22,167 nucleotides of DNA from a virus. The notes under the pieces were generated by a model, which made no database searches, was not told the origin of the DNA, and was given only the letters and a program-made list of their open reading frames with translations. Every line of letters begins with the position of its first letter. Position 1 is the stretch's first letter. Both the position numbers and the translations under genes were made by a program. The stretch spans positions 1 through 22,167 of IMG/VR virus record IMGVR_UViG_3300021376_003652. One strand, given 5' to 3'. This document shows positions 3,322 to 22,167 of this stretch, one piece after another.

Positions 3322-4626
3322 CTAGACAATGATACTAACACGCCCCCTTTGGGGCAACCCTAGACCAGTAAGAAAAACAAAGGCACCCACCGCTGAGTCA
3401 ACTTGGTCATCATGGTCGCACGCTTCGGGAAAAGAAGCAAATTCATCCAACCAATCGGTAACCCAAGAACCCCTGACCAAACGAACATTGCCGTTTGCGA
3501 CAGCCGCAGCGAACGGTCTTGCCCTTGTTTCTTTATCCCCCGTAGGACGCACCCCCTGTAAATCCCAACCCGGTACGACATATCTTGCATATTGGTCAAT
3601 TAAGGCTTTGCCTGAAGACCCAGGTTCTTGCTCCATACGAATTGCGATATTTTGCCCATCCTCCTGAGCGGTTCTTGCAATAAAAGCCTCAACTTTGTCG
3701 CCTTTTGCCCTTATTTTACGAACATCCATAATGTAGGCAATACCGGCGTCAAAAACCATCAATGTACCCACCGTCCAGTCGGGATTCGGGTTACTCGGGG
3801 AGGGCTCAGTAGCAGCCAAGTCCCAATATCTGACCGCTCTAGCGGCGCTTGTGATTTGGGGGACTTCCGTATGGTCAATGATTGGAAAATCTGCCCTGTC
3901 AAAAAGTGAACCGAGAGTGGTAGCCCACCAATCGCCAAGTTCAAGTCTTCTTCTTTCCAGGGGGTCAAGAGCGGAAAGCGCCTGTCTATATGAAATTGCG
4001 TCAATCCCCGGATTGTCCGTGAGGAACGAGGGAACGAAAATACGTTTTTCTTGTTTGCCCTCAACTATGAATCTTTGTCGAACCCAATTGGGGGCGGGGT
4101 TGGAGGCGGCACGCATACGCAAAGGGACTTTTGAGAGTTCGCCTTGAGCAGGGCGACGAAGACGAGAAAACAGATACCGATAATCGGACTCCCTAATTTC
4201 TGTTACTTCGTCCATCCCAATGAATTGAAATTCGGAACCCTTATAACGTAAATAGTCGTTGGTGTTGTTTAAATAACCGAAAGAAACCCGCGCACCCGAG
4301 GGAAATGTGGCAACATAACTGTTCGCATTCCAATGAATCTCGTCAAAACCCGATATCCACACACGAAAACGGTCCATCAAGGCGCCGGGAAGCGCTAAGT
4401 CGGCGTATGTTCGACGGAACAAAATAGCCGAATAATTTGGGACATCCACATATTGAAGTGACGCCATAAGCAAAGCCGAAGATTTGCCTCCGCCCGCAGC
4501 GCCTCCGAATAGCGCTTCAAGAGCGTATGTTCTTAGAAAAACTTTTTGGGTCGTGGAAGGTTCTTCGGGGCAAAATAACGGATGTTTGGGCTGTAAAAAT
4601 TCGTAAACAGATTTCCAGTCAGTCAT
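3322..4626 (-). CDS. terL: Terminase large subunit (packaging ATPase-nuclease)
   Basis: 434 residues from the ATG at 4624-4626, which is preceded by GTGGAAACC; a GTG nine bases earlier is an alternative start without a better ribosome site. The ATPase half has a Walker A GGAAGGGKSS (Lys48), a Walker B FQFIGMDE (Asp139, Glu140) and the coupling SNP motif near residue 175. The nuclease half has RYWDLAATE (Asp269) and ends with HDDQVDSAVGA (Asp406, Asp407, Asp410), the acidic residues of the RNase H-like nuclease. The length is normal for the family. It cuts concatemeric DNA and drives it into the prohead through the portal. It is on the opposite strand from the portal gene and heads the leftward recombination gene set, which is unusual. 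Confidence 0.95.
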   Translation of the reverse strand: MTDWKSVYEFLQPKHPLFCPEEPSTTQKVFLRTYALEALFGGAAGGGKSSALLMASLQYVDVPNYSAILFRRTYADLALPGALMDRFRVWISGFDEIHWNANSYVATFPSGARVSFGYLNNTNDYLRYKGSEFQFIGMDEVTEIRESDYRYLFSRLRRPAQGELSKVPLRMRAASNPAPNWVRQRFIVEGKQEKRIFVPSFLTDNPGIDAISYRQALSALDPLERRRLELGDWWATTLGSLFDRADFPIIDHTEVPQITSAARAVRYWDLAATEPSPSNPNPDWTVGTLMVFDAGIAYIMDVRKIRAKGDKVEAFIARTAQEDGQNIAIRMEQEPGSSGKALIDQYARYVVPGWDLQGVRPTGDKETRARPFAAAVANGNVRLVRGSWVTDWLDEFASFPEACDHDDQVDSAVGAFVFLTGLGLPQRGRVSIIV

Positions 4627-4635
4627 GGTTTCCAC

Positions 4636-4699: not shown

Positions 4700-4876
4700 A
4701 TGGACAAATTTTTGAAAATCAAAAAATATTTGACCCGACAATTTATGGCAAACTGTTTGATGGTTTTGTTCATTTTGGGGACGACGGTGGGTGCAAGTCT
4801 CATATTTCTGCCCGCTGGATTGGTGGTTGGGGGTCTTACTTGCGGAATCTTCGGATATTTGTTGGGGTCTGAATAA
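4700..4876 (+). CDS. Small two-helix membrane protein upstream of portal
   Basis: A 58-residue frame. A basic N-terminus (Lys4, Lys7, Lys9, Lys10, Arg14) is followed by one long hydrophobic region from about residue 18 to 56 with a Pro near residue 39, best read as two membrane helices or a helical hairpin. Its TAA shares one base with the ATG of the portal gene (TAATG at 4874-4878), so the two are translationally coupled. This overlap and the sensible membrane topology make it a real gene despite its size. Small membrane proteins beside packaging genes occur in phages, but I cannot assign a function; holin-like or envelope-related roles are possible. Confidence 0.7.
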   Translation: MDKFLKIKKYLTRQFMANCLMVLFILGTTVGASLIFLPAGLVVGGLTCGIFGYLLGSE

Positions 4877-7077
4877 TGTCTTGGAATAGTAATTTTAACA
4901 ACAAAGACCTAAAGAGCGTTGAGGAAAAATCAATTCTCAATGCTGGCGCTCCAATTGCTTTTGATGCCGGTCGCACGGGCAAACCCTATAGAGATGGTTG
5001 GGATATTGAACGTGCTTATCGAGAAGGAAGCCAAAAAGTTACTTGGGTGTTTAGGTGTATTGACGCCATCGCTGGGAATCAAGCAAAACTTCCGATTCTT
5101 CTCAGAAAAGACAACGACCAACGCGGCGAGATTATAAAAACCGACCGCCCAATTTTGGAATTACTTAATTCAAAATCCAACATGGGGGAAAATTCTTTCA
5201 TATTCCGTTACAGGCTTTCGTCGCAACTTTTGATGAGTTCACGAGGCGCATTCATAGAAAAAGTCAAAGGAAGAGATGGAAGAATAATCGCCCTCCACCT
5301 CCTCCCGCCACAACACACATCGCCGATACCTGACGCACGGAAATTTGTTTCAGGATACGAAGTTGATTTGCGGAACGGAACGAAAGTTTATTTAAAGCCA
5401 GAAGATGTTTGTTGGATTAGGCGACCCCACCCCCTTGACCCATACCTTTCGATTACTCCAATGGAATCAGCAGGAATTGCTATTGAATTGGAAAATCTTG
5501 CCAAACTTTACAACCGCAACTATTTGCTGAACGATGGGCGACCCGGCGGATTGCTTGTCGTTCGTGGGGAGATGGAGGAAGACGACAAACAGGAACTCAA
5601 GGCTCGTTTTCGAGGTAATCTTTCTCGCACCGGCTACACAAGCGTTATTGCTTCAACCGATGGCGTTGATTATGTCGATACATCTGCTTCACCCCGTGAT
5701 GCCGCATACATACAATTACGGCAAATTCAAAAAGAAGAAATTCTTTCGGCATTCGGCGTTCCCGAATCAGTTATAGGCAACGCATCGGGCAGAACATTTA
5801 GTAATGCGTCCGAAGAATTACGTGTTTTTTGGATGGAAACAATGACCCCACATCTTCATCAAATTAGCCGAGCGCTTGATGAACTTGACGATAAATATTA
5901 TGTTGATTTTGACGTATCTCAAATCCCGATTCTGATTCTCGCCAAACAAGAGCGTGAGCGATACACGATGGACGAATTTCAGCAGGGTTTGATTTCCCTG
6001 AACGAATACCGCGAGACAACAGGCAGGAAAAAAGTTGAATCCGAACTTGCTGATTCGCTTCTTTCCAACCCGAACCTTACCCCCATTGCCAATACCGAGA
6101 AACCTTTCAAACCCGAACAGCAACAGCCAGTTGACATGGTGGGTGTTGACCAAGGCGCTCCCGCCGGTGGTTTGCCCCCGATGGAGGGCGCTGTTGAAAT
6201 GCCTCAACCCGCACCTCCGGCACCAATCCCCGTTCCCGAAGGGGAAGCGCAAGCCCCCGCAACGACGGCGATTACGCCAGAGGAGCAACTAAGTGCGTTT
6301 GAAAGCGTCCAAGAGCAAATGCAACAAAAGTTCATGGAGGAAATCGAAAACAAGGCTGACTCCGATACGGATAGATGGACGGAGATTCTTGATAGGGCTT
6401 TGGAGCGTCTTTTTGAGAGACAGCAACGTGTTGTCACGGAAAAAGCATTTGGTAAAAAATCCCTAAAAGCACTTTCTTCTGGCGTTTTGACTGCGGAGAT
6501 GTTTTTTGATACAGAAGTTTGGAATAAGCAGTTAAGCGACGACATCAAGCCGGTGATTGTCGCAATCTGCAACGAAGCAAAAGATTATGTTTCTTCAAAA
6601 ACCAATTCGCCCGCCGAAATTGATGAGGATGAGTTGAAACAATTAACCGAAGAGCAGATTGCAAGAATGCAACAGGCAAATCAGACAACCCTTGAAGAAA
6701 TACAATCTGCGGTGCTCGTTGCGCTTGCATCTGGTGACGACGAAGACAAATCGGCGCTTTTGAGGCTCGCCCTTGTCGCCATTTTTATTAATTTGCTTCG
6801 CAAGCGCCGACGCGCCATGGCGGAGCATGAAGCACAAACAGCATTCAATTCTGGCGTCTATCTTGCGGGAAAGGATTCTGGTGGCTTGACCAAAACATGG
6901 ACAACCCGTCGGGATTCTAAAGTTCGTACCGCACACCAATTTTTGGACGGGAAAACAGTAGATTTCGGTGAGGGTTTCGCCGTGGGTGGAGCACTGCTTC
7001 GATTTCCGGGCGACCCGATTGCGCCCCCGTCGTTAACTTATAACTGTCGTTGCCGTCTGCGATTCAGATTTGAGTAA
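4876..7077 (+). CDS. Portal protein fused to a MuF-like head morphogenesis domain
   Basis: 733 residues. Residues about 45-395 match the HK97-type portal family: TWVFRCIDAIAGNQAKLP near the N-terminus, LLPPQHTSPIPD, then EEILSAFGVPESVIGN followed by a FSNASEE segment and a long C-terminal stem helix. A Pro/Gln/Ala-rich linker spans about 405-480. The remainder is largely helical and ends in a Mu gpF/SPP1 gp7-like domain: TWTTRRDSKVRTAHQFLDG (about 675-693), FPGDP (710-714) and a final Cys724-Arg-Cys726. The portal forms the dodecameric DNA channel docked to the terminase; MuF domains normally belong to a separate minor head protein, so this is a natural fusion roughly equal to both genes. It is coupled to the upstream small membrane gene by TAATG. 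Confidence 0.92.
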   Translation: MSWNSNFNNKDLKSVEEKSILNAGAPIAFDAGRTGKPYRDGWDIERAYREGSQKVTWVFRCIDAIAGNQAKLPILLRKDNDQRGEIIKTDRPILELLNSKSNMGENSFIFRYRLSSQLLMSSRGAFIEKVKGRDGRIIALHLLPPQHTSPIPDARKFVSGYEVDLRNGTKVYLKPEDVCWIRRPHPLDPYLSITPMESAGIAIELENLAKLYNRNYLLNDGRPGGLLVVRGEMEEDDKQELKARFRGNLSRTGYTSVIASTDGVDYVDTSASPRDAAYIQLRQIQKEEILSAFGVPESVIGNASGRTFSNASEELRVFWMETMTPHLHQISRALDELDDKYYVDFDVSQIPILILAKQERERYTMDEFQQGLISLNEYRETTGRKKVESELADSLLSNPNLTPIANTEKPFKPEQQQPVDMVGVDQGAPAGGLPPMEGAVEMPQPAPPAPIPVPEGEAQAPATTAITPEEQLSAFESVQEQMQQKFMEEIENKADSDTDRWTEILDRALERLFERQQRVVTEKAFGKKSLKALSSGVLTAEMFFDTEVWNKQLSDDIKPVIVAICNEAKDYVSSKTNSPAEIDEDELKQLTEEQIARMQQANQTTLEEIQSAVLVALASGDDEDKSALLRLALVAIFINLLRKRRRAMAEHEAQTAFNSGVYLAGKDSGGLTKTWTTRRDSKVRTAHQFLDGKTVDFGEGFAVGGALLRFPGDPIAPPSLTYNCRCRLRFRFE

Positions 7078-7078
7078 G

Positions 7079-7108
7079 TTTCAGTAAAGTCAAAAGACTT
7101 TACTGAAA
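7079..7108 (+). repeat. Perfect 13-bp inverted repeat (mRNA hairpin after the portal gene)
   Basis: TTTCAGTAAAGTC (7079-7091) and GACTTTACTGAAA (7096-7108) pair perfectly around an AAAA loop, starting two bases after the portal stop. No T-run follows, so it is not a standard intrinsic terminator. It may act as an attenuator, an RNA-processing or stability element, or an operator. It separates portal from protease, where expression levels usually need to differ. Confidence 0.85.
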
Positions 7109-7151
7109 GTGTTGCATTATTAATGATGTAAATAGTTTAAAGTTGTAGGGT
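7109..7151 (+). promoter_or_regulatory. Possible promoter/leader before the prohead protease gene
   Basis: An AT-rich stretch after the hairpin. TTGCAT (7112-7117) stands 18 bases before TTTAAA (7136-7141), a weak -35/-10-like pair, and TAGGGT lies immediately before the ATG at 7152, closer than an ideal ribosome site. Together with the hairpin this could reset transcription for the protease gene, but neither hexamer is a strong match. Confidence 0.2.
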
Positions 7152-9803
7152 ATGTCTGATGTGATGCAAACCGCCGCCCTTGAAATGACCGAATACAAAG
7201 CGTCACAAGGTCAAATCAATATTGATGAAGCACAAGGAATTGTCGAAGCCTTTGTAGCGGGGATTGGCAACAAGGACTCGGTGGGTGACATCATCGTTCC
7301 CTCGGCATTCAACGAAAGCCTAAAACGACGCAAACCGCGTGTCGTATGGGGGCATAACTGGAATGAGCCAATTGGAAAAGTTCTAGAAATTTACGAAGTC
7401 CCCCGCACCGACCCACGACTTCCAACCAAAATGAAAATGGCGGGAATCGGGGGGCTTTACGCCCGAGTGCAATTCAACCTCAAATCAGAACGCGGACGTC
7501 AAGCGTTCTCGGATGTTTCTTTCTTCGGCGAAGAGCAAGAATGGTCAATTGGCTACAAAACACTTGAAGCAGACTTTGACCCGTCACGCCAAGCAAATAT
7601 TTTGAAAAAAGTCGAACTATACGAAGTTTCCCCCGTTCTCCACGGTGCGAACCAACTGACAGGCACCATAAGTATCAAGACAGATGAATCCGCCAAAGGC
7701 GCCGACGGAAGCCCTTGTTGGGATGGCTACATACAAGTGGGCATGAAACCTGGCAAAAACGGGAAAATGGTGCCAAATTGCGTTCCAGTAGGAGAAAAAG
7801 GCGCACAACTAAGAGACCCCAAGGGTGGTCTTACCGCTGCGGGTCGCGCACATTTCCGACGAACCGAAGGTTCAAACCTTAAACCCGGAGTTAAAGGTCC
7901 TGCCAACACGCCAGAAAAAATGCGACGCAAAGGTTCTTTCCTGACCCGCTTCTTCACCAACCCGAGCGGTCCGATGAAAGACGACAATGGCAAACCGACA
8001 AGACTTGCGCTTTCGGCAGCCGCATGGGGTGAACCAATTCCGCAAGACAGGTCAGACGCAGCGAAACTCGCAGCAAAGGGGCGACGTCTTCTTGACCGTT
8101 ATCAGAACAGCAAGAAAAAGGACGACATGGAAGACATGTACCAGAAAGTACTTGAAACACTTGAAACGGACGCAAATTTCAAAAAAGAACAAAAACAATT
8201 TGTTCTCAAAGAACTACTTGCACAAGGCATGGAGCCAACACGAAAGGCTCACGACCGTTCAACAATGGAACGCATGATGCGTTTGCGTGCAATGGAGCAA
8301 TTCAAAAAGCGTCGAATGATGGAAATAATTCGTCAGTTGATGACACAAGAAAACGAAGAAGAGAGAGAAGAAGAAGGCGACGACGGCGTACCAGCAAAAA
8401 ATCCAAAACTTGGTAGGGTTGCCAACCTTGCAGATGCCCTATCCCGCAAATTTGGCGGCGCCGTAAGGGTCAGGGAATCCGACGCCAATCAAGTCGTTTT
8501 TGACCACAGGGCAGAATCGGGCAAAGTTTCAACAATGCGTCTTTCATACCATTTTGAAGATGGAAAATTTATGTTTGGCGAACCGACACAAGTGAAACCA
8601 AAATTGGTTTACCTGAATATGAACGGCGATAATGTCCCCTCAGCGAACGAAGAAGAACGCCGTTTTGTTGACCGCTACAACATGGAAGACGACCCACAGA
8701 TACCCGTTGGTGTCAAACCAAAAACGCCAGAAAAAGCAGACCCGCTTGGCGGATTGATTCCGCAAGAAGTTGTCACTGCCCGTTTCCGTGGTTACGGTCC
8801 TCGCCGAGGCAACCTTGAACGCCTGCTCCGCTACTGGCGCCCGATAATGAGGAAACCTGGCGGATTCCGTCGTTGTCGCGTGATTCTCGCTAATCACCCC
8901 GAGTTATATCCGTTGAATAACATTTGCGCTTGGCTCCACCACGAGACGACCGGACTTTGGCCGAACGAGGGCTGCCACCACCCCGGCATGAAGAACTGCA
9001 AGAAAAAAATACGAGGCATTAGGGGCGGTTCAATTTGGAACGACTCGGAGTGGAATGACCGACTTCGTTCACTTTTCAGCAGACGCAAAGACGACAATCC
9101 ATTCACGATGGAAGACGCCATTGAGGTATTCGGAGATATGGGCAGCGAAGAAAAGAACGCCATGATGATGGAAGATATAGCCGAAAGAATGGCTGTGGGT
9201 TCAATCCCCGATTTTGAAACGGACGACGAAGAGGAAGGCAACAAACAGGCTTATGAGGCTTTGCGAGAGTTCATGAACGCCGAACCCGAGTTCGTCTCCT
9301 ATATGACAGGAGACGACAATTGGGTAGAAGAAGGCGAAGACGAAGATGGCGAAACCATTGAAATGCCCATGATTTCCAAACCGGGCGGATGTGGATGCGG
9401 TGGTTCGTGTGGCGGTGGCGGAGGCAGAGAAATGATTGCCGCCCTAGCCGCCGCTTTGGCAGAAATGGTCAAAGAACTTGAAGAGGATGTAGAGGTCAAG
9501 GCTGGGCGAGTCATAAGTGCTAGAAACCTCAAGAAACTCCGAGATGCCTACCAACTCATGCAGGAAGTGCTTCTTGCTGGTGGCATAGACGAAATTGAGA
9601 TGAAAACAGCAAGTTTCCTTATAAGGGCTGAAACACAAAACATTTATGGGGTCAAAGAACTACTTGAACCAGTTCTAGAACATTACGGAATCAAGTCGGA
9701 AGCCAACGAATTTGGTGTCGAAATATTTGACATCGCCGAAATCAGCGATGACGCATATCAAGCGTTAAGCAATGTAGTCAAAAATATTGAAGATATCAAA
9801 TGA
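7152..9803 (+). CDS. Giant prohead protease fusion (protease, DUF6321-like, Cys/His cluster, scaffold-like tail)
   Basis: 883 residues against about 200-250 for a usual HK97-type prohead protease. Residues 12-176 are the serine protease: WGHNW with His68, EWSIGYKT with Ser132, and ELYEVSPVLHG (155-165). Then comes a CWDGYIQVGMKPG...VPNCVP segment (189-212) and a DUF6321-like domain (about 224-318: LTAAGRAHFRR, EKMRRKGSFLTRFF, TRLALSAAAWGE). A charged helical region follows (about 320-410). Residues 571-616 hold Cys575, Cys592, His596/597, Cys608, His609/610 and Cys616, a plausible zinc site. An acidic region, CGCGGSCGGGGG (747-758) and a helical tail (GRVISARNLKKLRDAY near 785-800) end the protein, the tail being scaffold-like. 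The protease should mature the head by cleaving scaffold and capsid proteins and itself. Confidence 0.87.
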   Translation: MSDVMQTAALEMTEYKASQGQINIDEAQGIVEAFVAGIGNKDSVGDIIVPSAFNESLKRRKPRVVWGHNWNEPIGKVLEIYEVPRTDPRLPTKMKMAGIGGLYARVQFNLKSERGRQAFSDVSFFGEEQEWSIGYKTLEADFDPSRQANILKKVELYEVSPVLHGANQLTGTISIKTDESAKGADGSPCWDGYIQVGMKPGKNGKMVPNCVPVGEKGAQLRDPKGGLTAAGRAHFRRTEGSNLKPGVKGPANTPEKMRRKGSFLTRFFTNPSGPMKDDNGKPTRLALSAAAWGEPIPQDRSDAAKLAAKGRRLLDRYQNSKKKDDMEDMYQKVLETLETDANFKKEQKQFVLKELLAQGMEPTRKAHDRSTMERMMRLRAMEQFKKRRMMEIIRQLMTQENEEEREEEGDDGVPAKNPKLGRVANLADALSRKFGGAVRVRESDANQVVFDHRAESGKVSTMRLSYHFEDGKFMFGEPTQVKPKLVYLNMNGDNVPSANEEERRFVDRYNMEDDPQIPVGVKPKTPEKADPLGGLIPQEVVTARFRGYGPRRGNLERLLRYWRPIMRKPGGFRRCRVILANHPELYPLNNICAWLHHETTGLWPNEGCHHPGMKNCKKKIRGIRGGSIWNDSEWNDRLRSLFSRRKDDNPFTMEDAIEVFGDMGSEEKNAMMMEDIAERMAVGSIPDFETDDEEEGNKQAYEALREFMNAEPEFVSYMTGDDNWVEEGEDEDGETIEMPMISKPGGCGCGGSCGGGGGREMIAALAAALAEMVKELEEDVEVKAGRVISARNLKKLRDAYQLMQEVLLAGGIDEIEMKTASFLIRAETQNIYGVKELLEPVLEHYGIKSEANEFGVEIFDIAEISDDAYQALSNVVKNIEDIK

Positions 9804-11559: not shown

Positions 11560-13848
11560 ATGAATTCGTCTCTCGCATTTACGGCGAATGACAGGATTGC
11601 CTTATATACGAAATCTATTTCGTCTGTCCAAGAAAATATTCTTCTATTCAAAGGGTTTTTAGGACCTAGTCTCAAGGACAAGCCAAATCTGCAATCGGTT
11701 GGGGCGCGTGCTGCCCGTGCCGCTGGCGTGATTGTTGATGCTGCGGGAAAATTGCGATGCCCGCCGGGAACACCGAACGCCAACCAATTTACAGACATGC
11801 AGATGTCCAATTGTTTAGTTCCGGGGATGGCGCTCGCCAAGCGAGCCGTTCGTGCGTCGCGACGAGAAGTTGGCGATTTGCTTACACAGGGGAAAAAAAT
11901 TTTTGAAAACAAAAAAGTAAGTAGCACAACAAAGGTCGCCGCATTGACGGCGTTGGCAACACTTGATGCGCTTGACTATTTGAACGTTGACGGTTCTGGA
12001 ACGCTGTCAGCCGTAACTTTGATTGGTGTTGATTTGTTGCGAACGGTCGGGAAAGATGTTGCCGACCTTGCTCTTAATCGTCTTGAACGAAAGGGCAAAA
12101 TTAGCAAAGAACAACGTGCGGACGTGGACAAAATTGTTGACAAAATCCACACTATCGGTTCTTCTAAATATACTTCGGCGGCAATTTCGGCTCTTCGGAG
12201 AAGGAATAGAAAATCTAATCTTGCCACACAAACAGCAGATATGGATAACGCAAATCCGGCGGCACCCGATGCATCAATACGGAAAGATGGTTTGACGAAA
12301 GTTACATTTGACGCCGATTCTTTCAACACGGAATTGGATGCAAAAATTGCAAAACTTTTAAATAAGTATGTTCCCAATGCAAAAAACAAAGAAGTTGAAG
12401 AATACGGTGATGAACTGATTGCAAAAATGGGTATACCTAAATCAAGAAGCATGAAAGAAATGCTTGATAGTGGGATAAATGACTTGAAGGGTGATTTACT
12501 AACGACAAGAATTGCCCGACTGAGAAATAAATCTAATGAAGATGGCGTTGATGATGCCTCAAAAGAACGGTTAAGGAACAGCGCTGACCAACTAGAAAAA
12601 ATTCAATCAATGTTAGAAACCGAGGGAGGTCGTGACGCCATTCGTAAAGAGTTAGGAAGAGGTTTTGTTGAGGCTCTTGTGGGGGCAGAATTGCTTATGC
12701 AAGACAATCCTTCTTTGCGTGGCGCATTCACATTTGAAATACATCAAATAGGTGATGGTGGACCTCAAGGCGCTGGCGCATATGCATGGATTGCAGATTA
12801 CCCCGACGGTAAAATTATTTCAGCAACAAGATTTTATGCTGATTCCCTGCTGATAAGCAATGTTGGCGTTGGCGGTGATGCGATGGAGAAAGGGGACATG
12901 TTTAACGGCTCTGTAAAAATTGCGGGAACCGACGACTATCAGATAGGTGTTTCCGTACATGAACTATCTCATGTCGCCCATTATGCGGAGGTTTTAAAAA
13001 CGCTGGGCATAAACTCGACAGCATCCGACCCGCCAGCGCTTGAACAAATCAGAAAACAAGGTTCAAAAGTTGGTGACACTTTTATTGGCGCAAAGTTCGC
13101 TGTTTCTTACAATATTGACCCCGATACGGATTGGAAAGATGTTGAAACGGCATTCAACGATAAAAGAATGCGGGCAGAAATTTTTGGTTACACATCTACA
13201 CCAAATTTAAATTCTCTTTTTGCTATATATGCGAAAGATGTTGCTCATAGCGATAATAGTTCGTATTCTGATTCCGTAATGGACAATTTGGGTTTTATTC
13301 TTAACAAGTTCAGTGAAGGTCTTGATAGTAAAAAGAAACTGTTTTGGGAAGCATTAACTTCGGTTAAATTTGACAAAGTTGCAATGTCCTCTTTTGAAGA
13401 CAATGACAGTATTTCTTCGGTTGAAAAAATTAGAGAACTTTTAGAAAATCAACTTGGTGGTCAAACAATTGAAAAGTTTTTGGAAGAGGGTAAACAACTA
13501 TTTGACGAAACCTTAGGTTTTGATTCGACAAGAATAAATACTAAAGGTATCAAATCTAATGAAATTATGCCCGTTCTTGGCTCTGCATCAAAATATGCTC
13601 AGACCAACAATTGGGAGGCTTTTGCTGAGGCTAAATTGTTGACGGTGTTAACAAAAAACTTCCCTGACACAAAAATCATGGACGACAAAGCCTTTGATGA
13701 AATGGGGAATATGGTGAATTTGATAGCACCGTCAGATTCGGGTCGAGCAACTCCTAGTATTATGACCCCGCAAGCAAAAGCGTGGATTAAACGGTTGCAG
13801 TCAGCAATCAACTCTATGCCAGAATTAGAACGAGGTGGCATAATTTAA
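11560..13848 (+). CDS. HExxH zinc-peptidase-like protein with the shared CP-FTD-C module
   Basis: 762 residues with a GGTGAG ribosome site just upstream. Near the N-terminus Cys67 (RCPPGTPN) and Cys85 flank QFTD, 18 residues apart, followed by a basic helix ALAKRAVRASRREVGDLL; the same module is found in the next three large genes. A long helical middle follows. The C-terminal half has HELSHVAHYAE (His467, Glu468, His471), the zinc and catalytic motif of zincin metallopeptidases, preceded by a strand-like GTDDYQIGVSV. NNWEAFAEAKL (683-693) offers Glu686 or Glu690 as third ligand, as in gluzincin-type NxxExxAE motifs. It is probably a zinc protease carried in or acting on the particle; its substrate is unknown. 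The following 74-residue gene overlaps by TAATG. Confidence 0.83.
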   Translation: MNSSLAFTANDRIALYTKSISSVQENILLFKGFLGPSLKDKPNLQSVGARAARAAGVIVDAAGKLRCPPGTPNANQFTDMQMSNCLVPGMALAKRAVRASRREVGDLLTQGKKIFENKKVSSTTKVAALTALATLDALDYLNVDGSGTLSAVTLIGVDLLRTVGKDVADLALNRLERKGKISKEQRADVDKIVDKIHTIGSSKYTSAAISALRRRNRKSNLATQTADMDNANPAAPDASIRKDGLTKVTFDADSFNTELDAKIAKLLNKYVPNAKNKEVEEYGDELIAKMGIPKSRSMKEMLDSGINDLKGDLLTTRIARLRNKSNEDGVDDASKERLRNSADQLEKIQSMLETEGGRDAIRKELGRGFVEALVGAELLMQDNPSLRGAFTFEIHQIGDGGPQGAGAYAWIADYPDGKIISATRFYADSLLISNVGVGGDAMEKGDMFNGSVKIAGTDDYQIGVSVHELSHVAHYAEVLKTLGINSTASDPPALEQIRKQGSKVGDTFIGAKFAVSYNIDPDTDWKDVETAFNDKRMRAEIFGYTSTPNLNSLFAIYAKDVAHSDNSSYSDSVMDNLGFILNKFSEGLDSKKKLFWEALTSVKFDKVAMSSFEDNDSISSVEKIRELLENQLGGQTIEKFLEEGKQLFDETLGFDSTRINTKGIKSNEIMPVLGSASKYAQTNNWEAFAEAKLLTVLTKNFPDTKIMDDKAFDEMGNMVNLIAPSDSGRATPSIMTPQAKAWIKRLQSAINSMPELERGGII

Positions 13849-14491: not shown

Positions 14492-14526
14492 TTTCGGACT
14501 AATTGCGACCCAATAAAAGGGCACCA

Positions 14527-15813
14527 ATGGGCAGTATTATTAACCCCACAATTGACAAATTCCTGCAAACACGCAGACAAAACCACCGCAATGGACGCTT
14601 CTCGTCCGTGAAGCGGACTGTTTTTGCGCTTCAAAAACAAATCACTTTTAAATTCAGCGGCGGTTTTGAAGACAAAAAATCTTTGTCGGTCAAAAACACG
14701 CCGATATCCACAAACAGAAAAACCTTAAATCTTAAAGCAAGAATTTTTTTAGACAAAAAAATATCCCGTCTTGGCTCTCCATTGGACGTTGAGATTCCCC
14801 AAATAGAACAACTCCAAGAAAAAGTCGGTTTAATCAGTTCACGGTCAAGACTCGGAAGATTTGCTCAGGGTGTTGGCTCATTCGTAACACCGGGAAATAT
14901 TTCTCCATTTAGAAGTCCGATACGCTCGGGTTTGTATCGTGCCTTAACGCCGGGCAAACCAGGTCTAGGGGCGCTCAGGCGTGCGCTTACCAATACGGAA
15001 CGGGGGTACAGGTGTCCTGCCGGTTTTGAATATGGCGGACGGTTCACGGATAATAACTATACGACTTGCGGTGCTCAATTGTTTGAAATACCAGGACCAC
15101 TTGCCCTGATTGCTCGCGCAGTACGCAGCGCTAACAATATTCCCAGCGCCAGAGTTGAAAGCCTTTCGCAAGTCATTGAAGGACAACCGTCGGCAAACAG
15201 AACGCTTCAAATACGGAGAATGGCGAAAATTCCACGCAACGCATCCCCCAATAGCAAGGCTTTCAAAAAAGGAATAGATGATGCGATAAAGATTCTGAAA
15301 GGTGCGCCAGGTGGGGAGGGACGAATGATTCGCAAGGATGGAATTATTTTACGACCGCTTGTTCCATCGTCGGTTTTGCGTCAATTCAGCGGCAACAAAG
15401 ACATGCTTGACGGTGCGATGATACGAGCGGCACGGACACCCCAAGATATTTCTCCCGACGATTTAGGTTTGCTGGCGGGCGCTTCAATGAGCAGAATTAC
15501 CTATGTCGCCCCCAACGGTGCGCTGGTAAGCATAGAAAGAGCAAGACCGCTTACGGTTGGTGAACGACGCAAGTTTGGTCGTCAACTTAATAGGGCTATT
15601 GCGAACGACCCCAACGACCCAACAATTAATATCAAAAAGTTTGCAGATGGGACAAACGGCGCTTTTAAATACAGCGAAGATTTTGGCAAAGTTCCGGAAC
15701 CGCTAGAACTCGTGACGTACACGGGGAGCGACGGGGTCGAGAGGACTGTCCGCAGATGGGTCTTCGAGGCGTTTATTAAACAAAATATTTCCAAGAAAAA
15801 AAACAATGAATGA
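14527..15813 (+). CDS. Protein of unknown function with the shared CP-FTD-C module
   Basis: 428 residues from the ATG at 14527, chosen because AAAGGG (14516-14521) lies five bases upstream; an in-frame TTG at 14503 would add eight residues. The N-terminal 85 residues are strongly basic. Then come SRLGRFAQGVGSFVTPGN and RALTPGKPGLGALRRAL, and the module: Cys163 (YRCPAGFEYGG), RFTD and Cys181, again 18 residues apart, followed by an ALIARAVRSANN helix. The C-terminal half (about 220-428) contains alternating helices and strands (ITYVAPNGALVSIERARPL, then VERTVRRWVFEAFI) that I do not recognise. It is shorter than its module-bearing neighbours and lacks their Arg/Pro-rich linkers. The stop overlaps the kinase-like gene by eight bases. 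Confidence 0.82.
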   Translation: MGSIINPTIDKFLQTRRQNHRNGRFSSVKRTVFALQKQITFKFSGGFEDKKSLSVKNTPISTNRKTLNLKARIFLDKKISRLGSPLDVEIPQIEQLQEKVGLISSRSRLGRFAQGVGSFVTPGNISPFRSPIRSGLYRALTPGKPGLGALRRALTNTERGYRCPAGFEYGGRFTDNNYTTCGAQLFEIPGPLALIARAVRSANNIPSARVESLSQVIEGQPSANRTLQIRRMAKIPRNASPNSKAFKKGIDDAIKILKGAPGGEGRMIRKDGIILRPLVPSSVLRQFSGNKDMLDGAMIRAARTPQDISPDDLGLLAGASMSRITYVAPNGALVSIERARPLTVGERRKFGRQLNRAIANDPNDPTINIKKFADGTNGAFKYSEDFGKVPEPLELVTYTGSDGVERTVRRWVFEAFIKQNISKKKNNE

Positions 15814-18800
15814 AAACAATATTGGCTCTGAAATCATTGTAATTTCAGATAAAAAAAATACCATTGAATATAAAGCAATGGCGTTCGTATCCGAACAAAC
15901 CAAAACGACTTTCAACTACGAAATCAAAAGAATCCGAGCACTATGGGACCCGTCACTGTCAATACCCGGCACTGGCAGACGAGGCGGTTGGAGATGCCCT
16001 GTTGGAACACGCTATGGCGGTCAAATCACCGACAGATTCGGAAGAAACTGTGGGTGGGGCGTAGCCCGTCGTATAGCCAACGCTATTTCAAACATCGGTG
16101 AACGTTTAGAAAACCGTGACGATGACAAGCGCAAAAGACGGGTAGAGCGACGCAACGCCCGAATGATTGAGAGACTGCAACGACAAGAACGAGGTGGCGC
16201 CCTTGAGAGGGGGGCAAGAAGTATTGCGGAAAGATTGGAAGGCGGAGAAGCGCCGACAGAGGCACGAGGCACGACGCGTGAACAGGGGAGATTGGGGAGA
16301 ATTTTTGGCGATGACGGTCCTTTGCGTATAGGACCTGTACGAATGCCTCGGGATGCAGAAGATAGACAACCTAGACGACAACCACAACAAAGGCGACAAC
16401 CGCAACAAGGACGACCAGAGCAACCACGAATCGAACGACCAGCGGCGCCCGAAAACGAAGAGCAGACACCCACGGCGCCCGCACCCGCAAGACCCGCTCA
16501 ACCCGCAAGACCACGCCGTCGCGGTCGTGCACAAACTGATGTTGATGCGCCAGAAGACGGACCGATGCAAAACGAAAGTTTTGATGACTACAAAAACAGA
16601 AAATATGCAGAGTACAAATCTCGTATTGAAAAAATTCAACAAGAAGGCGGAAATGCTGGTTTATTGACACAGGACGAATGGTTCAAATTCAATGAAGGCA
16701 ATCTTCGTGAAGCATACAATCGTGTCAACAATGTCCCCCAAAGACCGGCGCCCGCCCGACGCCGTCAAAGACGGGAAGCATCACCAACCCCCGACGGAGA
16801 AGTTGGGAAGCGAACGGGTGACGACCTCAACGATGCCGAAAAAGCAGTGCTTAACAAAATTAAAAACAACGCCAGAAACTTTGAATATAGAGGGTTTTGG
16901 GATGTAGATGTTGACCCGAATGACGATGAAAAAAGGATTATAAATGAACTTGTTAAAAAGGGGTATTTTCGGCGACCCCAAAGAGAGGTTGGCATGGACT
17001 TCCGCGGACTTGGCGGGCCAGGACCAGAAATCCAAGTGTGGTACCCGCTCACCAACAAAGGAAGACGATATTTCGGAGTCACCGATAGCCGTTTGATGGA
17101 CCCCGAAGAACAGGCGCCCGCTCCTCGGCGCCGTAGAGTCGCTGCGTCGGCGCAAAGAGCACGAGAAAGAGCAAATAAACCGCCAAGAAGAGTTGATGAA
17201 ACCCCTCGTCCTTTGGTTGTTAAACCCGATGACATAGACTCAAATTTTGGTGCTGAACCAGATTTGGGAGGGAGTGTTCCCGATGTTCGTTCGGAAAGAA
17301 ATGTTCGGAATCGTTTCCGTGAACGAGGTCTCCCAGATACTGCTTATTGGCGTGACGACTTATATCAGGGAGACGACAAAGCGGAACTTGAGCGCAGATT
17401 TGGTCGATATTACGATGACAGCAATCGGCGTAACGCCCGTGGCGATTTTGTCAATAATCGTATTCGGGAAGGCGGCGGTCAACCAGCCCGCAGAAGACAG
17501 CCTCCCGCAGCACCACGGGAACCAGACCCAAGTATTCAAAGAATCCTTGACGAAGAAGCAGAAGTCGCCGCACGGGTAGGAGACCCCGCAGACCTCGCCG
17601 AACAAGCAATTGAAGCGGCTAGACAGCAAGCAGATGATGCGGAAAATGCTGTACGCGCCCCCATACCGACAAGCAAGGCTGAGCGCAAAAGACAAATCGC
17701 TGTACTGCGCCAACGTGCATCAGAAGCATTGCGCAATCTTGACCAAATGGAGCGAAACGGTGCGAGAGACGCACTTGTTCGAGAAGAACAAAGAAGATTG
17801 GATGCGATACAAAATCGTATAATGGTCTTGCAAGGTACAAGAACACGGGGTAATTCAAGACCGCTTAGACCCGCACCGGTACGTGGTGACAGTGATAACG
17901 CCGCCGAATCTGAAAGACTTCGTCGGGCTAGGGCAGACGCCGCTCGCAGACCCGGCAGAGTTCTTAATTCAATAGTTGCAGACCAGCGATTTTTGAGTGG
18001 TTACATCGCCGATGCGATTCGGGGCAACGGTGACCGTCTGGCTATCGTCAATGACCCTGAAAATTTTCCTAATTCACCTGCAAGGAAAATGCAAATTGCT
18101 CAAGCCGCTCGACAAAATATTGCAGTCCTAACTAGATGGAGGGAAGACCTTCAACGCGCTGAGAACCGTGGAGTTATCGGCGAAAATGATTTTATTGAAG
18201 TTGATGGCGAACAAGTAAAACTTGCAAGAATCAAAAAAACTCTTATGGATAATATTGATGCATGGGGTGAAGTTCTTGCAGCAAATGAACCATCTTCGGG
18301 GAGGGCAAACGCACCCGAGGCGCCTGCGGCTCCAAGACGACCAAGACAGCCAAGACGACAAGGGGCTGTAAGGTCAAGGCGCAATGCACAATCTCCACAA
18401 AACAATGAATCTCCACAAAACAATGAACGACAACCCGCACCTCGACAAGTGCCAAACATGAATCGGCTTCAAAGTCGACATGATGCGCAAAATCTTCCTA
18501 GATTGGCTAACGGGAAATTTGAGAAGGTTCTTAAAGGAAACAAAGGAATTCGAACCGAATTAGACGCCGCATCCTATGCAGGTCCACTTACCGATATTCC
18601 AGATGATTTTTTGGGTGTTGCCCTTAGGAAACGCTCAAAGACACTAGCGGAAGCAGTGGCAGAATCTGCGGGTCAAAACCCCAACGCAGCGGCTTCACGG
18701 GAGGCAAGGGAATTTAAGAGCAGAGTGGAAGCAGCGCGAAAAAGTGGTGGAGCAAGTCTTACGGATGCAGACAGACAAAAACTTCTTCAAATCAAACGCT

Positions 18801-19657
18801 CTGGATTCTCATATATCTCTTATCCGGCTGGCACTCATGGCGCAAATCCATGGTTCCATCTTTACATCGGAGACGATGGCTCACTTGACGGCAGAGGGTA
18901 TTTGTTCAAGCCACCAGATAGGTCTTTTGGCGTTGCTTCACAACATTCAGAACTATTCGGTGGCTTGCTTGCCGAAAGAATGGGTTTTGCTGCTGGTCAG
19001 GGGCGCATTGTCAAAGATGACAATAAGGTCAAAATCCTTCAAGAGTTAGGTCCTAATTTTGCTGAAGGGCATGTAAAAAATGTTGCGGATTTTACCGAAA
19101 CGGGTCGTCGTGGTGCGAATGCGATAACAGACAAAGAATCTCGTCTCGGTATGGCAGTTGTCAACGCTATTACCGGAGCGACAGATAGACACAACAGTAA
19201 TGCGATGATTTTTGAAGGCAATGGCGCCCTACCGATTGACTTTGGGCGAGGATTTTACAGACAACCCGACACCGTGGATTCGCTTTTCAATTACATGGGT
19301 GGTGAGGCTTACAATTATATTGACGATAATCCATTTCATGGATACAAAGTGCGTATTACGGAACTAGAAAATGCCGGTTGGACTCGCGATGAGGCTATAG
19401 CAGCGGTACGCGCCGAATTAAAGACAACTCTTTCAAATTGGGCTAACGGTATACGAAGCGCATACGACGACGGAACAGTTGCGGCGCTTGACAGAAGATT
19501 TGCGGCGCAAGCGATGCAAGGTCGTGGGACTTGGGGAACCCGAGTCACGTCCGTCCCCGAACGAGCCGCAAAAGTTCTTGCCCGTATCGGACTAATTGAA
19601 TCAGATGCATTTGTTGACAAAGTTATCGCTAAAATAACCCGACCGGTCAGAGCGTGA
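15806..19657 (+). CDS. PI3/4-kinase-like protein with the shared CP-FTD-C module
   Basis: 1283 residues. Residues 22-148 are the duplicated module: TTFNYE, RALWDP, Cys64 and Cys82 around ITD, then an Arg-rich helical region. Residues 150-250 are a Gln/Arg/Pro-rich linker. About 340-425 looks like a winged helix (LNDAEKAVLNKI, NELVKKGYFRR, WYPLTNKGRRYFG). Residues 430-890 are mostly charged helix and Pro/Arg linkers, with a doubled SPQNNE. The C-terminal 280 residues look like a PI3/4-kinase-type fold: YLFKP (Lys1035), Glu1049, a hinge near 1076-1081, TDRHNSN (Asp1127, Asn1132) and IDFG (Asp1145). All key catalytic residues are present, so it is probably active on protein or lipid. HipA-like kinases are an alternative, but DRHxxN plus DFG fits PI3/4K better. 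It is probably particle-borne. Confidence 0.85.
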   Translation: MNENNIGSEIIVISDKKNTIEYKAMAFVSEQTKTTFNYEIKRIRALWDPSLSIPGTGRRGGWRCPVGTRYGGQITDRFGRNCGWGVARRIANAISNIGERLENRDDDKRKRRVERRNARMIERLQRQERGGALERGARSIAERLEGGEAPTEARGTTREQGRLGRIFGDDGPLRIGPVRMPRDAEDRQPRRQPQQRRQPQQGRPEQPRIERPAAPENEEQTPTAPAPARPAQPARPRRRGRAQTDVDAPEDGPMQNESFDDYKNRKYAEYKSRIEKIQQEGGNAGLLTQDEWFKFNEGNLREAYNRVNNVPQRPAPARRRQRREASPTPDGEVGKRTGDDLNDAEKAVLNKIKNNARNFEYRGFWDVDVDPNDDEKRIINELVKKGYFRRPQREVGMDFRGLGGPGPEIQVWYPLTNKGRRYFGVTDSRLMDPEEQAPAPRRRRVAASAQRARERANKPPRRVDETPRPLVVKPDDIDSNFGAEPDLGGSVPDVRSERNVRNRFRERGLPDTAYWRDDLYQGDDKAELERRFGRYYDDSNRRNARGDFVNNRIREGGGQPARRRQPPAAPREPDPSIQRILDEEAEVAARVGDPADLAEQAIEAARQQADDAENAVRAPIPTSKAERKRQIAVLRQRASEALRNLDQMERNGARDALVREEQRRLDAIQNRIMVLQGTRTRGNSRPLRPAPVRGDSDNAAESERLRRARADAARRPGRVLNSIVADQRFLSGYIADAIRGNGDRLAIVNDPENFPNSPARKMQIAQAARQNIAVLTRWREDLQRAENRGVIGENDFIEVDGEQVKLARIKKTLMDNIDAWGEVLAANEPSSGRANAPEAPAAPRRPRQPRRQGAVRSRRNAQSPQNNESPQNNERQPAPRQVPNMNRLQSRHDAQNLPRLANGKFEKVLKGNKGIRTELDAASYAGPLTDIPDDFLGVALRKRSKTLAEAVAESAGQNPNAAASREAREFKSRVEAARKSGGASLTDADRQKLLQIKRSGFSYISYPAGTHGANPWFHLYIGDDGSLDGRGYLFKPPDRSFGVASQHSELFGGLLAERMGFAAGQGRIVKDDNKVKILQELGPNFAEGHVKNVADFTETGRRGANAITDKESRLGMAVVNAITGATDRHNSNAMIFEGNGALPIDFGRGFYRQPDTVDSLFNYMGGEAYNYIDDNPFHGYKVRITELENAGWTRDEAIAAVRAELKTTLSNWANGIRSAYDDGTVAALDRRFAAQAMQGRGTWGTRVTSVPERAAKVLARIGLIESDAFVDKVIAKITRPVRA
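15869..16249 (+). repeat. Duplicated 127-codon module, copy 1
   Basis: Encodes residues 22-148 of the kinase-like protein. It aligns without gaps to 20408-20788, with about 108 of 127 residues identical by hand count. The shared core runs from RRGGW through both cysteines to GERLEN. Confidence 0.9.
18392..18427 (+). repeat. 18-base tandem repeat encoding SPQNNE
   Basis: Two exact copies of TCTCCACAAAACAATGAA in a linker ahead of the kinase-like domain. Confidence 0.85.
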
Positions 19658-19961: not shown

Positions 19962-20056
19962 TTCTTTACTACTATTATTGACCATAACTGAATAGTGATA
20001 CCATTTTAAGGTATTCTCTCCCCTGCCTAAAGGGTGCATAAAGAAGAAAGACCTTG
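19962..20056 (+). promoter_or_regulatory. Intergenic region with possible promoter/operator
   Basis: This 95-base gap is the longest in the rightward arm. It has TTGACC (19978-19983), a good -35-like hexamer, but the nearest -10-like TACCAT (19999-20004) is 15 bases away, shorter than ideal. ACTATT (19971-19976) and AATAGT (19991-19996) flank the region as an inverted repeat, and ATACC...GGTAT (19998-20002 and 20010-20014) forms another. AAGAAGAAAG before the ATG at 20057 may serve as ribosome site. A separate promoter for the last gene is plausible. Confidence 0.3.
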
Positions 20057-22167
20057 ATGAAAACCGCATTCGTTGTCAAAACACGAGATGGTAAACCATT
20101 CATGCTTATCTCGTCATCCACAGAAGGAAGCACCTTTAAACCGCTATCTGATGACGCGAAAAATCTTGCCAAGGCTTTTTCGGACGAATACAAAGAATCG
20201 GCAATAACAAAAGCAGAACTTGACGCATCTCTTGATGCGGGCATGACAGTACAAGGTCCGATGCCAGAATCGGCGGTAGCCTCCGCAATAGAAAGCGGAA
20301 CAAAAACCGCATTTGAAACAAGTGAAACAAAATTTCTTCCAGTTATGTCTGTGTCCGATGCCCCTATTTACGTGTTTTCTGAAAAAGAATTCAACAATGT
20401 CATCGTCTACAAAACATTGGCGTTCATTGGTGAACAACAAAAAACAACTTTCAACTACGAAGTAAAAAGAATCCGAGCACTATGGGACCCAGGTCTTTCT
20501 ATTCCGGGAACAAACCGTCGGGGTGGGTGGAGATGTCCTGTTGGAACACGCTACGGCGGTCAAATCACCGACCGTTTTGGTCGTAACTGCGGTTGGGGGG
20601 TAGCCCGAAGAATTGCGAACGCAATCTCAAACATCGGTGAACGACTTGAAAATGTTGATGACCGTAAACGAAACCGTAGAGTTGAGCGACGCAACCAGCG
20701 AATGATTGAGCGGCTTCAAAACCAAGAACGTCCGGGCAGAATTGAACAAGGTTTTAGAAGTGTGGCGGAAAGACTTGAAGGCGGAGAAGGTACACCACAA
20801 ATTGCTCCGACATCAAGACAAAGACCGCAAATTCCTCAAACAACAGTCAGACCGCAAGGGCAGAGAAGGCGCCCAACACCCAAACCCGTAGAAGTACCTG
20901 CCGCTCCTGCTCGTCCTAGGGCACGCAGAAGAGGTGCTACTACTGCTCGTCTCGAAGATAGACGAGATGCTGGTTTGCGTGACTCGGAAAGAAGAAGAGT
21001 TCGGCGAGAAATAGAAGAACCCGGCGCACCAAGAACCGATGAAGCACCTGCCCGCAGACCGCAAAGAGAAGCAGATGCTGGTAGGCGCCGAATAAATCTT
21101 CTAGAAAATGAGTCAGACGCAGTTTTGCAAGACATGTTGGACGAGATGCGTCAAGACCCTAACTATAAAGACAGCGAAGATTACAAACAGGTAATGAAAG
21201 AAATCCGTCGTAGGCAACGACTAAACAACCGTCGCCAACCCGCAAGACCCCAAAGGGGTGGGAATCTTCGTGATTCAGAACGACGAAGAATGAATAGGGA
21301 AATTGAGCAACCCGGCGCATTAAGAACCGATGAAGATGCACCCGCACCTGCGCCAGCGCCCGCACCTGCGCCAGCGCCCGCACCTGCGCCAGCGCCCGCA
21401 CGACCTGCAAGACCACGCCGTCGCCGAGCATCCGAACAGCGTGCGGAACAAACAGCGGCTCGACGCCCTGAAGCAGAAGCGCCGGCGGTCGAAGTTCAAC
21501 CACAAAGACCAGCCAGAACGCAAACAGCAGTCAACCAAAATAAAGTGACAGCAGCAAAAAATCAAGTATTAAATCAATTGCGTGGTGCTGACTTTAATGA
21601 CGAAAGCAGATGGGGGGATGATTTAGCAAGTCTTGACGAAAAGATGACGAGACTTGTTTTTGAGGCTTTTAGAGATAATCCACAAGAAGAAGAGCGAATG
21701 CAACAGAGATTAAGAGACGCGTCTATTGTGCCAGAAGCACAAAGACGACGTGCACAGGAACAAATTAATGACCTAAATGCAGACCGGCTTCTTGATGACG
21801 CGGAGTGGGCTAATTGGAAGGAAGCAACCCGTCAACGATTGAGACAAATAGCAGACAACCCTTATTTTGATGCCGTAGGCAACCGTGAGGGGGTGGCACG
21901 CCGAATTGCCATGTCGGACATTATTGAAGAATACGGCCGTATGCGTGAACAGTTTTTGGGATTGCGTTATGGGAAAGTAAGACGAGATGAATTGCGTGCA
22001 GAACGGGCACCAAACGCCCCCGAAGCAAACGCCCCCGAAGCAAACGCCCCCGAAGCAAACGCCGCAGGGGCAGTAAACCGAGACATAGCGGCTGTTGCAT
22101 CACGATTCAGGGATGTCTGGGTGGTGGTGCGACCCCAAAGCATTTATGACGGTTTAGTACAGCAGGC
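20057..22167 (+). CDS. Module-bearing protein, partial (runs off right edge)
   Basis: 703 complete codons are open to the window's end, so the C-terminus is missing. Residues 1-100 are a unique N-terminal region. Residues 118-244 are the second copy of the 127-residue module (Cys160 and Cys178 around ITD), followed by Arg/Pro/Gln-rich linkers. A motif LRDSERRR...REIE...PGA...RTDE occurs twice (306-331 and 402-427). An Ala-Pro repeat lies at 429-448 and a triple NAPEA repeat at 653-667. Between them, about 500-650 is charged helix. By analogy with the kinase-like neighbour, a catalytic domain may follow beyond the edge. No enzyme motif is visible in the part present. Confidence 0.85.
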   Translation, partial: MKTAFVVKTRDGKPFMLISSSTEGSTFKPLSDDAKNLAKAFSDEYKESAITKAELDASLDAGMTVQGPMPESAVASAIESGTKTAFETSETKFLPVMSVSDAPIYVFSEKEFNNVIVYKTLAFIGEQQKTTFNYEVKRIRALWDPGLSIPGTNRRGGWRCPVGTRYGGQITDRFGRNCGWGVARRIANAISNIGERLENVDDRKRNRRVERRNQRMIERLQNQERPGRIEQGFRSVAERLEGGEGTPQIAPTSRQRPQIPQTTVRPQGQRRRPTPKPVEVPAAPARPRARRRGATTARLEDRRDAGLRDSERRRVRREIEEPGAPRTDEAPARRPQREADAGRRRINLLENESDAVLQDMLDEMRQDPNYKDSEDYKQVMKEIRRRQRLNNRRQPARPQRGGNLRDSERRRMNREIEQPGALRTDEDAPAPAPAPAPAPAPAPAPAPARPARPRRRRASEQRAEQTAARRPEAEAPAVEVQPQRPARTQTAVNQNKVTAAKNQVLNQLRGADFNDESRWGDDLASLDEKMTRLVFEAFRDNPQEEERMQQRLRDASIVPEAQRRRAQEQINDLNADRLLDDAEWANWKEATRQRLRQIADNPYFDAVGNREGVARRIAMSDIIEEYGRMREQFLGLRYGKVRRDELRAERAPNAPEANAPEANAPEANAAGAVNRDIAAVASRFRDVWVVVRPQSIYDGLVQQ
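20408..20788 (+). repeat. Duplicated 127-codon module, copy 2
   Basis: Encodes residues 118-244 of the right-edge protein and aligns without gaps to 15869-16249. In the 46-codon identical core about 22 codons differ silently, so the copies are old and held together at the protein level. Confidence 0.9.
21341..21394 (+). repeat. 18-base tandem repeat encoding alternating Pro-Ala
   Basis: Three exact copies of CCCGCACCTGCGCCAGCG plus a partial fourth, coding for a stiff Ala-Pro linker in the right-edge protein. Confidence 0.92.
22013..22057 (+). repeat. 15-base tandem repeat encoding NAPEA
   Basis: Three exact copies of AACGCCCCCGAAGCA followed by a partial AACGCC. A single similar segment (ANAPEAP) occurs in the linker of the kinase-like protein near residue 834. 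Confidence 0.92.

Follow-up and report, generated by a model that had tools for sequence, protein, structure and literature searches.

A predicted kinase is encoded in the head-gene region of an uncultured phage, represented by IMG/VR record IMGVR_UViG_3300021376_003652. The entire record (22,167 bases) was analyzed and is referred to here as the window. Judged from sequence comparisons and a structural model, the C-terminal third of a 1283-residue protein forms a PI3/4-kinase-like domain whose active site is intact, and enzyme activity is predicted. The protein begins with a module that contains a cysteine motif (the Cys tag), followed by a long basic linker. The same tag is present in several consecutive head genes of related phages (their positions are referred to as slots). 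The explanation that we favor, with moderate confidence, is that the kinase belongs, as one of several payloads, to a polymorphic row of virion effectors with Cys tags, basic linkers and exchangeable enzyme ends, which would be packaged, injected and active in the host.

The sequence evidence for the kinase comes from a family of related domains. As a single query, the window kinase finds no match in IMG/VR viral contigs, GenBank phages or the Protein Data Bank (PDB); NCBIfam has no match for the protein, and PADLOC has none for its kinase. The family was reached by a search with the N-terminal module (residues 23-103), which has matches at 45 distinct IMG/VR loci (63-91% identity), followed by profiles; from the proteins at these loci, about 70 different kinase-like C-termini were obtained. 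The alignment used here contains 44 intact domains, 14-48% identical to that of the window. Degenerate sequences (no DRHxxN or DFG), cut-off sequences and one oversized sequence were excluded, and residues described as invariant are so among the intact domains. An alignment with all 44 domains is too diverse for a scan of the collection. Seven catalytic residues (Lys, Glu, Asp, Arg, His, Asn and Asp) are invariant. At the DFG position the Asp is invariant, and Phe-Gly is replaced in some members (DPS, DHG, DLG, DHS). The DRHxxN...DFG pattern occurs once in the six frames of the window.

The C-terminal part of the window protein scores 19.5 bits with the Pfam PI3_PI4_kinase family (PF00454). 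This is below the cut-off of 27.1 bits, which is passed by a slot-I relative (29.3 bits) and by a relative in L020 (27.2 bits; labels with L or G denote the records or loci of relatives compared with the window). The PF00454 model matches 36 of the 44 domains (best E value 7e-9) and has matches in only one of 14 control genomes. HipA_2 matches 15 of the domains (best E value 9e-6), and Fam20C also matches members. Compared by sequence with PDB chains, the 44-member family profile finds PI4KB (E value 2e-6) as well as a Fam20-like chain (4kqa), PI3K, mTOR and ATM. The window domain itself has no HipA match, and no antitoxin match was found in the neighboring open reading frames (ORFs) that were scanned. 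The ratio of nonsynonymous to synonymous substitution rates (dN/dS) of the kinase domain is 0.06-0.23 among relatives, indicating purifying selection.

The AlphaFold2 model of the kinase domain has a predicted local distance difference test score (pLDDT) of 90 and a predicted template modeling score (pTM) of 0.90. The order of its elements is canonical, β3(Lys)-αC(Glu)-hinge-αE-DRHxxN-β-β-DFG, with several helices after the DFG motif. The best structural matches found by Foldseek are PI3-kinases (VPS34, E value 1.5e-6, probability 1.0), and among viral models the top match is a protein of an uncultured member of Caudovirales that already bears the name PI3/4-kinase. The original prediction, made from the DNA letters and their translations, had proposed a PI3/4-kinase-like fold with all catalytic residues kept. 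Lys1035, Glu1049, the DRHNSN loop (residues 1127-1132) and Asp1145-Phe-Gly are located exactly where it had placed them. The modeled fold is kinase-like, as the check set beforehand required, and both the order of the Lys, Glu, catalytic loop and DFG and the strands, helix and loops that carry them are as expected. The position at the C-terminus also agrees with that prediction, but the start does not, as the conserved, confidently modeled domain begins near residue 900 (about 18500) and not at 18872.

The Cys tag, CPxGT..GGQ(I/F)TD....C, is present in five consecutive genes of a 145-kb relative and in four of a 133-kb relative, and is absent from every other long ORF of both. In these two phages the tagged row sits between the prohead protease and the major head protein. 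The head-region setting that had been proposed for the kinase gene is confirmed by the portal-MuF fusion and prohead protease upstream and, in full-length relatives, the major head protein downstream. The proposal that its module is common to other genes also holds, with the N-terminal module or tag found in further head-region genes.

The order of the slots is fixed across relatives. The C-terminus in slot I (tag CPPGTPNANQFTD) is an HExxH domain, a kinase, both, or DUF3626. Slot II has no recognized enzyme or a degenerate kinase-like domain, and slots III and IV have kinases. The last slot, where present, has a domain whose model matches GNAT acetyltransferases; it is not named by Pfam and PDB profile searches, and the GNAT-like label comes from the model and a fold search. 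A kinase-like end is found in 66 of the 107 tagged proteins with a complete C-terminus, and kinase matches are present in all 25 records tested (one of them weak). A phage can have up to three intact kinases, from different subfamilies. The linkers of the tagged proteins are long and mostly basic, and the basic net charge of these proteins is suggestive only.

The enzyme ends are exchanged between closely related phages. In records L030 and L028, a common stretch of 14.5 kb (93.9% DNA identity) stops within the slot-IV gene. Past this breakpoint the two slot-IV kinases are only 30% identical over 147 residues (identities between the kinases of relatives are BLAST values), and the similarity is back at the next gene. 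The slot-III kinases of this pair are 99% identical and the capsid proteins 97% identical. The same exchange pattern at slot IV is observed for L018 and L019, while L022 and L023 differ at slots I, III and IV. In slot I, about 218 N-terminal residues are conserved and the C-terminus switches type. A constant N-terminus with exchanged C-termini is the pattern of polymorphic effectors.

Two GTDB genome scans with the tag regions found no relative, and the host was therefore inferred from the actinobacterial regulator WhiB, present in 11 of 15 records, and from the closest terminase, portal and capsid relatives, which are in phages of Gordonia, Brevibacterium and Streptomyces. The hosts are probably Actinobacteria.

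Both a head-gene context and multiple disparate enzyme domains behind a common N-terminal part are found, and this part would be responsible for delivery. In the mechanism that we propose, the Cys tag (CPxG...TD...C) would direct the tagged proteins into the prohead, and they would exit with the DNA into the host. The kinase would then phosphorylate actinobacterial proteins, more likely than lipids, such that a defence could be disabled or metabolism redirected early in infection. The chances are about even that the short Cys motif is a capsid-packaging tag of an undescribed delivery platform comprising four to five head genes. The platform would provide a panel of swappable protein-modifying enzymes (up to three PI3/4K-like kinases, an acetyltransferase-like domain and an HExxH protein) acting from the first moment of infection.

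Several points weigh against this explanation. Packaging by the tag and injection are inferred from the genes, and both the tag and the kinase are absent from the cultured relatives that were checked. Compared with solved kinases, the model has low global template modeling scores (TM-scores), mostly 0.30-0.39, and any assignment of a subfamily or substrate is therefore tentative. Some tagged proteins have degenerate kinase-like domains that have lost the catalytic residues, and a part of the family may be structural. Head genes are usually expressed late, and a late intracellular role would fit this as well.

Such a role is the basis of the strongest rival, in which the kinase is made with the head genes, stays in the infected cell and modifies regulators or the envelope of the host, with the exclusion of other phages during virion maturation as one possible purpose. 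Late expression is general for head genes, and C-terminal swapping is also compatible with a conflict between phages. The same proposal has been made by Benler et al. for the HipA-like kinase located between the portal and capsid genes of Gratiaviridae (PMC8008677). However, this rival leaves unexplained why one N-terminal tag is found on several different enzymes and is confined to the head-gene row, and it does not account for the long basic linkers. We regard it as unlikely, and the roles in the capsid, on lipids or without catalysis as less likely.

A kinase for assembly would phosphorylate the capsid, scaffold or portal-MuF protein, thereby regulating head maturation or DNA packaging. The location of the gene among the head genes, with an 8-base overlap between its start (15806) and the stop of the slot-II gene upstream, is consistent with this role. 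In comparison, cassette exchange speaks against a kinase that serves only the capsid of its own phage, as kinases are swapped between phages whose major capsid proteins share 97% identity. Moreover, a phage can carry three intact kinases of different subfamilies, and sister slots have GNAT-like or HExxH domains instead, which makes an assembly function improbable. The original prediction had offered phosphorylation of host proteins after DNA injection or of a capsid component; the former fits better because of the exchange between phages with such similar capsid proteins, and both remain proposals.

Slightly less probable again is an activity on actinobacterial phosphatidylinositol or another small molecule. 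Phosphatidylinositol is found in Actinobacteria, the probable hosts, unlike in most bacteria, and the nearest solved relatives, PI4KB and VPS34, are lipid kinases. On the other hand, the segment after the DFG position varies by subfamily (DFGR, DPSL, DHGL, DLGW), suggesting varied substrates, and the protein-kinase-like families HipA_2 and Fam20C also match members. Finally, a non-catalytic role of the kinase fold, in binding or as an internal protein of the head, is suggested by tagged paralogs in which DRHxxN and DFG are lost (DRSPATL...PSSNELS), but it is very improbable for the window protein, as its own subfamily and most others retain the seven catalytic residues under purifying selection.

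The features of the window are listed in Table 1. The slot-I protein is suggested by its HExxH motif to be a putative metallopeptidase; it has no Pfam family above the cut-off. All ten homologous ORFs listed retain the motif (HELSH, HEALH, HEVAH, HEAAH, HEGAH, HETGH). Between the protease and slot I, positions 9836-11383 encode an acidic protein of 515 residues that contains Cys in several segments and matches PepSY weakly. The corresponding protein in G012 weakly matches the C-terminal end of a family of head maturation proteases.

Table 1. Positions of the kinase gene, its parts and the neighboring genes in the window
Feature	Positions	Strand	Basis
Terminase large subunit	3322..4635	-	context
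Portal-MuF fusion	4876..7077	+	context
Prohead protease	7152..9803	+	Peptidase_S78, E value 5e-13
Slot-I tagged gene, HExxH metallopeptidase-like C-terminus	11560..13848	+	tag 11758-11814; HELSH 12958-12972
Slot-II tagged gene, no enzyme domain found	14503..15813	+	tag 15013-15069
Tagged head-region protein, 1283 residues, predicted C-terminal kinase	15806..19657	+	ORF
N-terminal shared module, residues 23-103	15872..16114	+	matches 45 distinct IMG/VR loci
Cys tag CPVGTRYGGQITDRFGRNC, residues 64-82	15995..16051	+	tag in 4-5 consecutive head-region genes of two relatives
Long Arg/Pro/Ala-rich linker, about residues 111-898, net basic	16137..18499	+	16.8% Arg, 8.6% Pro
PI3/4-kinase-like catalytic domain with N-terminal helical extension, residues 899-1283	18500..19654	+	AlphaFold2, Foldseek, family profile
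Lys1035, strand β3, predicted ATP-binding lysine	18908..18910	+	alignment and model
Glu1049, helix αC glutamate	18950..18952	+	alignment and model
Hinge strand ILQELGPN, residues 1077-1084	19034..19057	+	model
Catalytic loop DRHNSN, residues 1127-1132 (Asp1127, Arg1128, His1129, Asn1132)	19184..19201	+	Asp, Arg, His, Asn invariant, 44 domains
DFG metal-binding motif, residues 1145-1147	19238..19246	+	Asp invariant; Phe-Gly variable
Tagged gene after the kinase gene, cut by the record end	20054..22165	+	tag 20534-20590

Some tagged genes of the relatives show other arrangements. The slot-I gene at L022:6247-7935, in the same tag context, has a DUF3626 end (E value 6e-10) and not a kinase or HExxH domain, and its counterpart at L029:6240-7928 is of equal length. 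A single tagged protein at L020:4050-7373 has both a kinase domain (131-431) and an HExxH-type domain (581-1100). The slot-II proteins at L042:7416-9602, L043:7413-9602, L044:7399-9606 and L037:7413-9629, which are in one clade, have the degenerate domains mentioned above, possible pseudokinases. In L013, the slot-I kinase is apparently split over two overlapping ORFs (4861-7188 and 7185-7946), the second of which has ERDxSN instead of DRHxxN; this kinase is possibly decaying. Among the cultured phages, gp25 of Gordonia phage Gray (L084:6050-7045), in the portal-to-capsid interval, is annotated as an RNA ligase and matches, below the threshold, the 2'-5' RNA ligase family and the anti-CBASS protein Acb1. 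Streptomyces phage Gilgamesh has one hypothetical gene of 13,875 bases between portal-MuF and capsid (L086:6979-20853; MN234216 31978-45852), possibly a giant counterpart of the tagged-gene interval.

If the proposed delivery is correct, these uncultured and probably actinobacterial phages would use kinases loaded beforehand to reprogram their hosts, a strategy that is uncommon among viruses of bacteria. The tag would then be a signal, open to testing and possibly general, by which proteins enter phage heads. The swapping of the kinase ends suggests that their targets belong to the host or to a defence and are under rapid selection, and the ends would be a natural set of variants for finding these targets.

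Parts of this arrangement have already been described, namely the general idea of injected multi-enzyme phage proteins including kinases (PMC5512222) and kinases in the portal-capsid interval or beside capsid genes. The statement in the original prediction that such a kinase is not known from described phages was too strong in view of the latter, the HipA-like kinase of Gratiaviridae (PMC8008677) and a PI3/4K-like protein of HSTV-2. No description of a tagged, ordered, multi-kinase row with cassette swapping was found in the open-license literature.

The PI3/PI4-kinase family (PF00454; PI4KB, VPS34) gives the best sequence-profile and fold matches and has the DRHxxN...IDFG core in common with the window protein, which differs in being under the Pfam cut-off, in the variable DFG of its relatives and in its fusion to a phage head module. 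MuF-associated and polymorphic toxins also have a constant N-terminal delivery part and an exchangeable C-terminal enzyme. In the window, however, MuF is fused to the portal and not to the kinase, and the tag is different; no immunity gene was identified, the small ORFs between slots not having been systematically examined. Gordonia phages such as Gray, with related terminase, portal and capsid, have enzymes of host-modifying or counter-defence type in the same interval (a VIP2-like ADP-ribosyltransferase and an Acb1-like 2H enzyme), but these are different enzymes, with no kinase and no tag.

In the haloarchaeal virus HSTV-2, gp16 (KC117376) has the kinase motifs VFKPNK...DRHYGN...AIDSGG and matches the family profile with an E value of 4e-7. 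Its gene is between the capsid and tail genes, beside the capsid gene. Unlike the window protein, gp16 has 490 residues, lacks the Cys tag and is a single copy in its record. The HipA-like kinase of Gratiaviridae gut phages has the same broad fold and is encoded in the same interval, between the portal and major capsid genes, with a proposed role in superinfection immunity (Benler et al. 2021, PMC8008677). It is a single kinase of Bacteroidetes phages, and the accessible text of that report describes no tagged multi-enzyme row. The two characterized phage protein kinases cited there (T7-like and 933W) are not described there as virion-delivered (PMC8008677).

The polyvalent proteins of phages and conjugative elements are large proteins with disparate enzyme domains, including kinases, that have been proposed to be packaged and injected, and recombining cassettes have been suggested for them (Iyer et al. 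2017, PMC5512222). The likeness to the tagged proteins lies in these disparate domains, kinases among them, on large phage proteins for which packaging and injection are proposed. The polyvalent-protein kinases come from (pro)phages of Verrucomicrobia, Chlamydia and Bacteroidetes and were reported without the entire C-terminal subdomain (PMC5512222). In comparison, the model of the window kinase keeps the helices after the DFG motif, and its family is PI3/4K-like, with a Cys tag that is usually followed by a single enzyme in each protein, in an ordered row.
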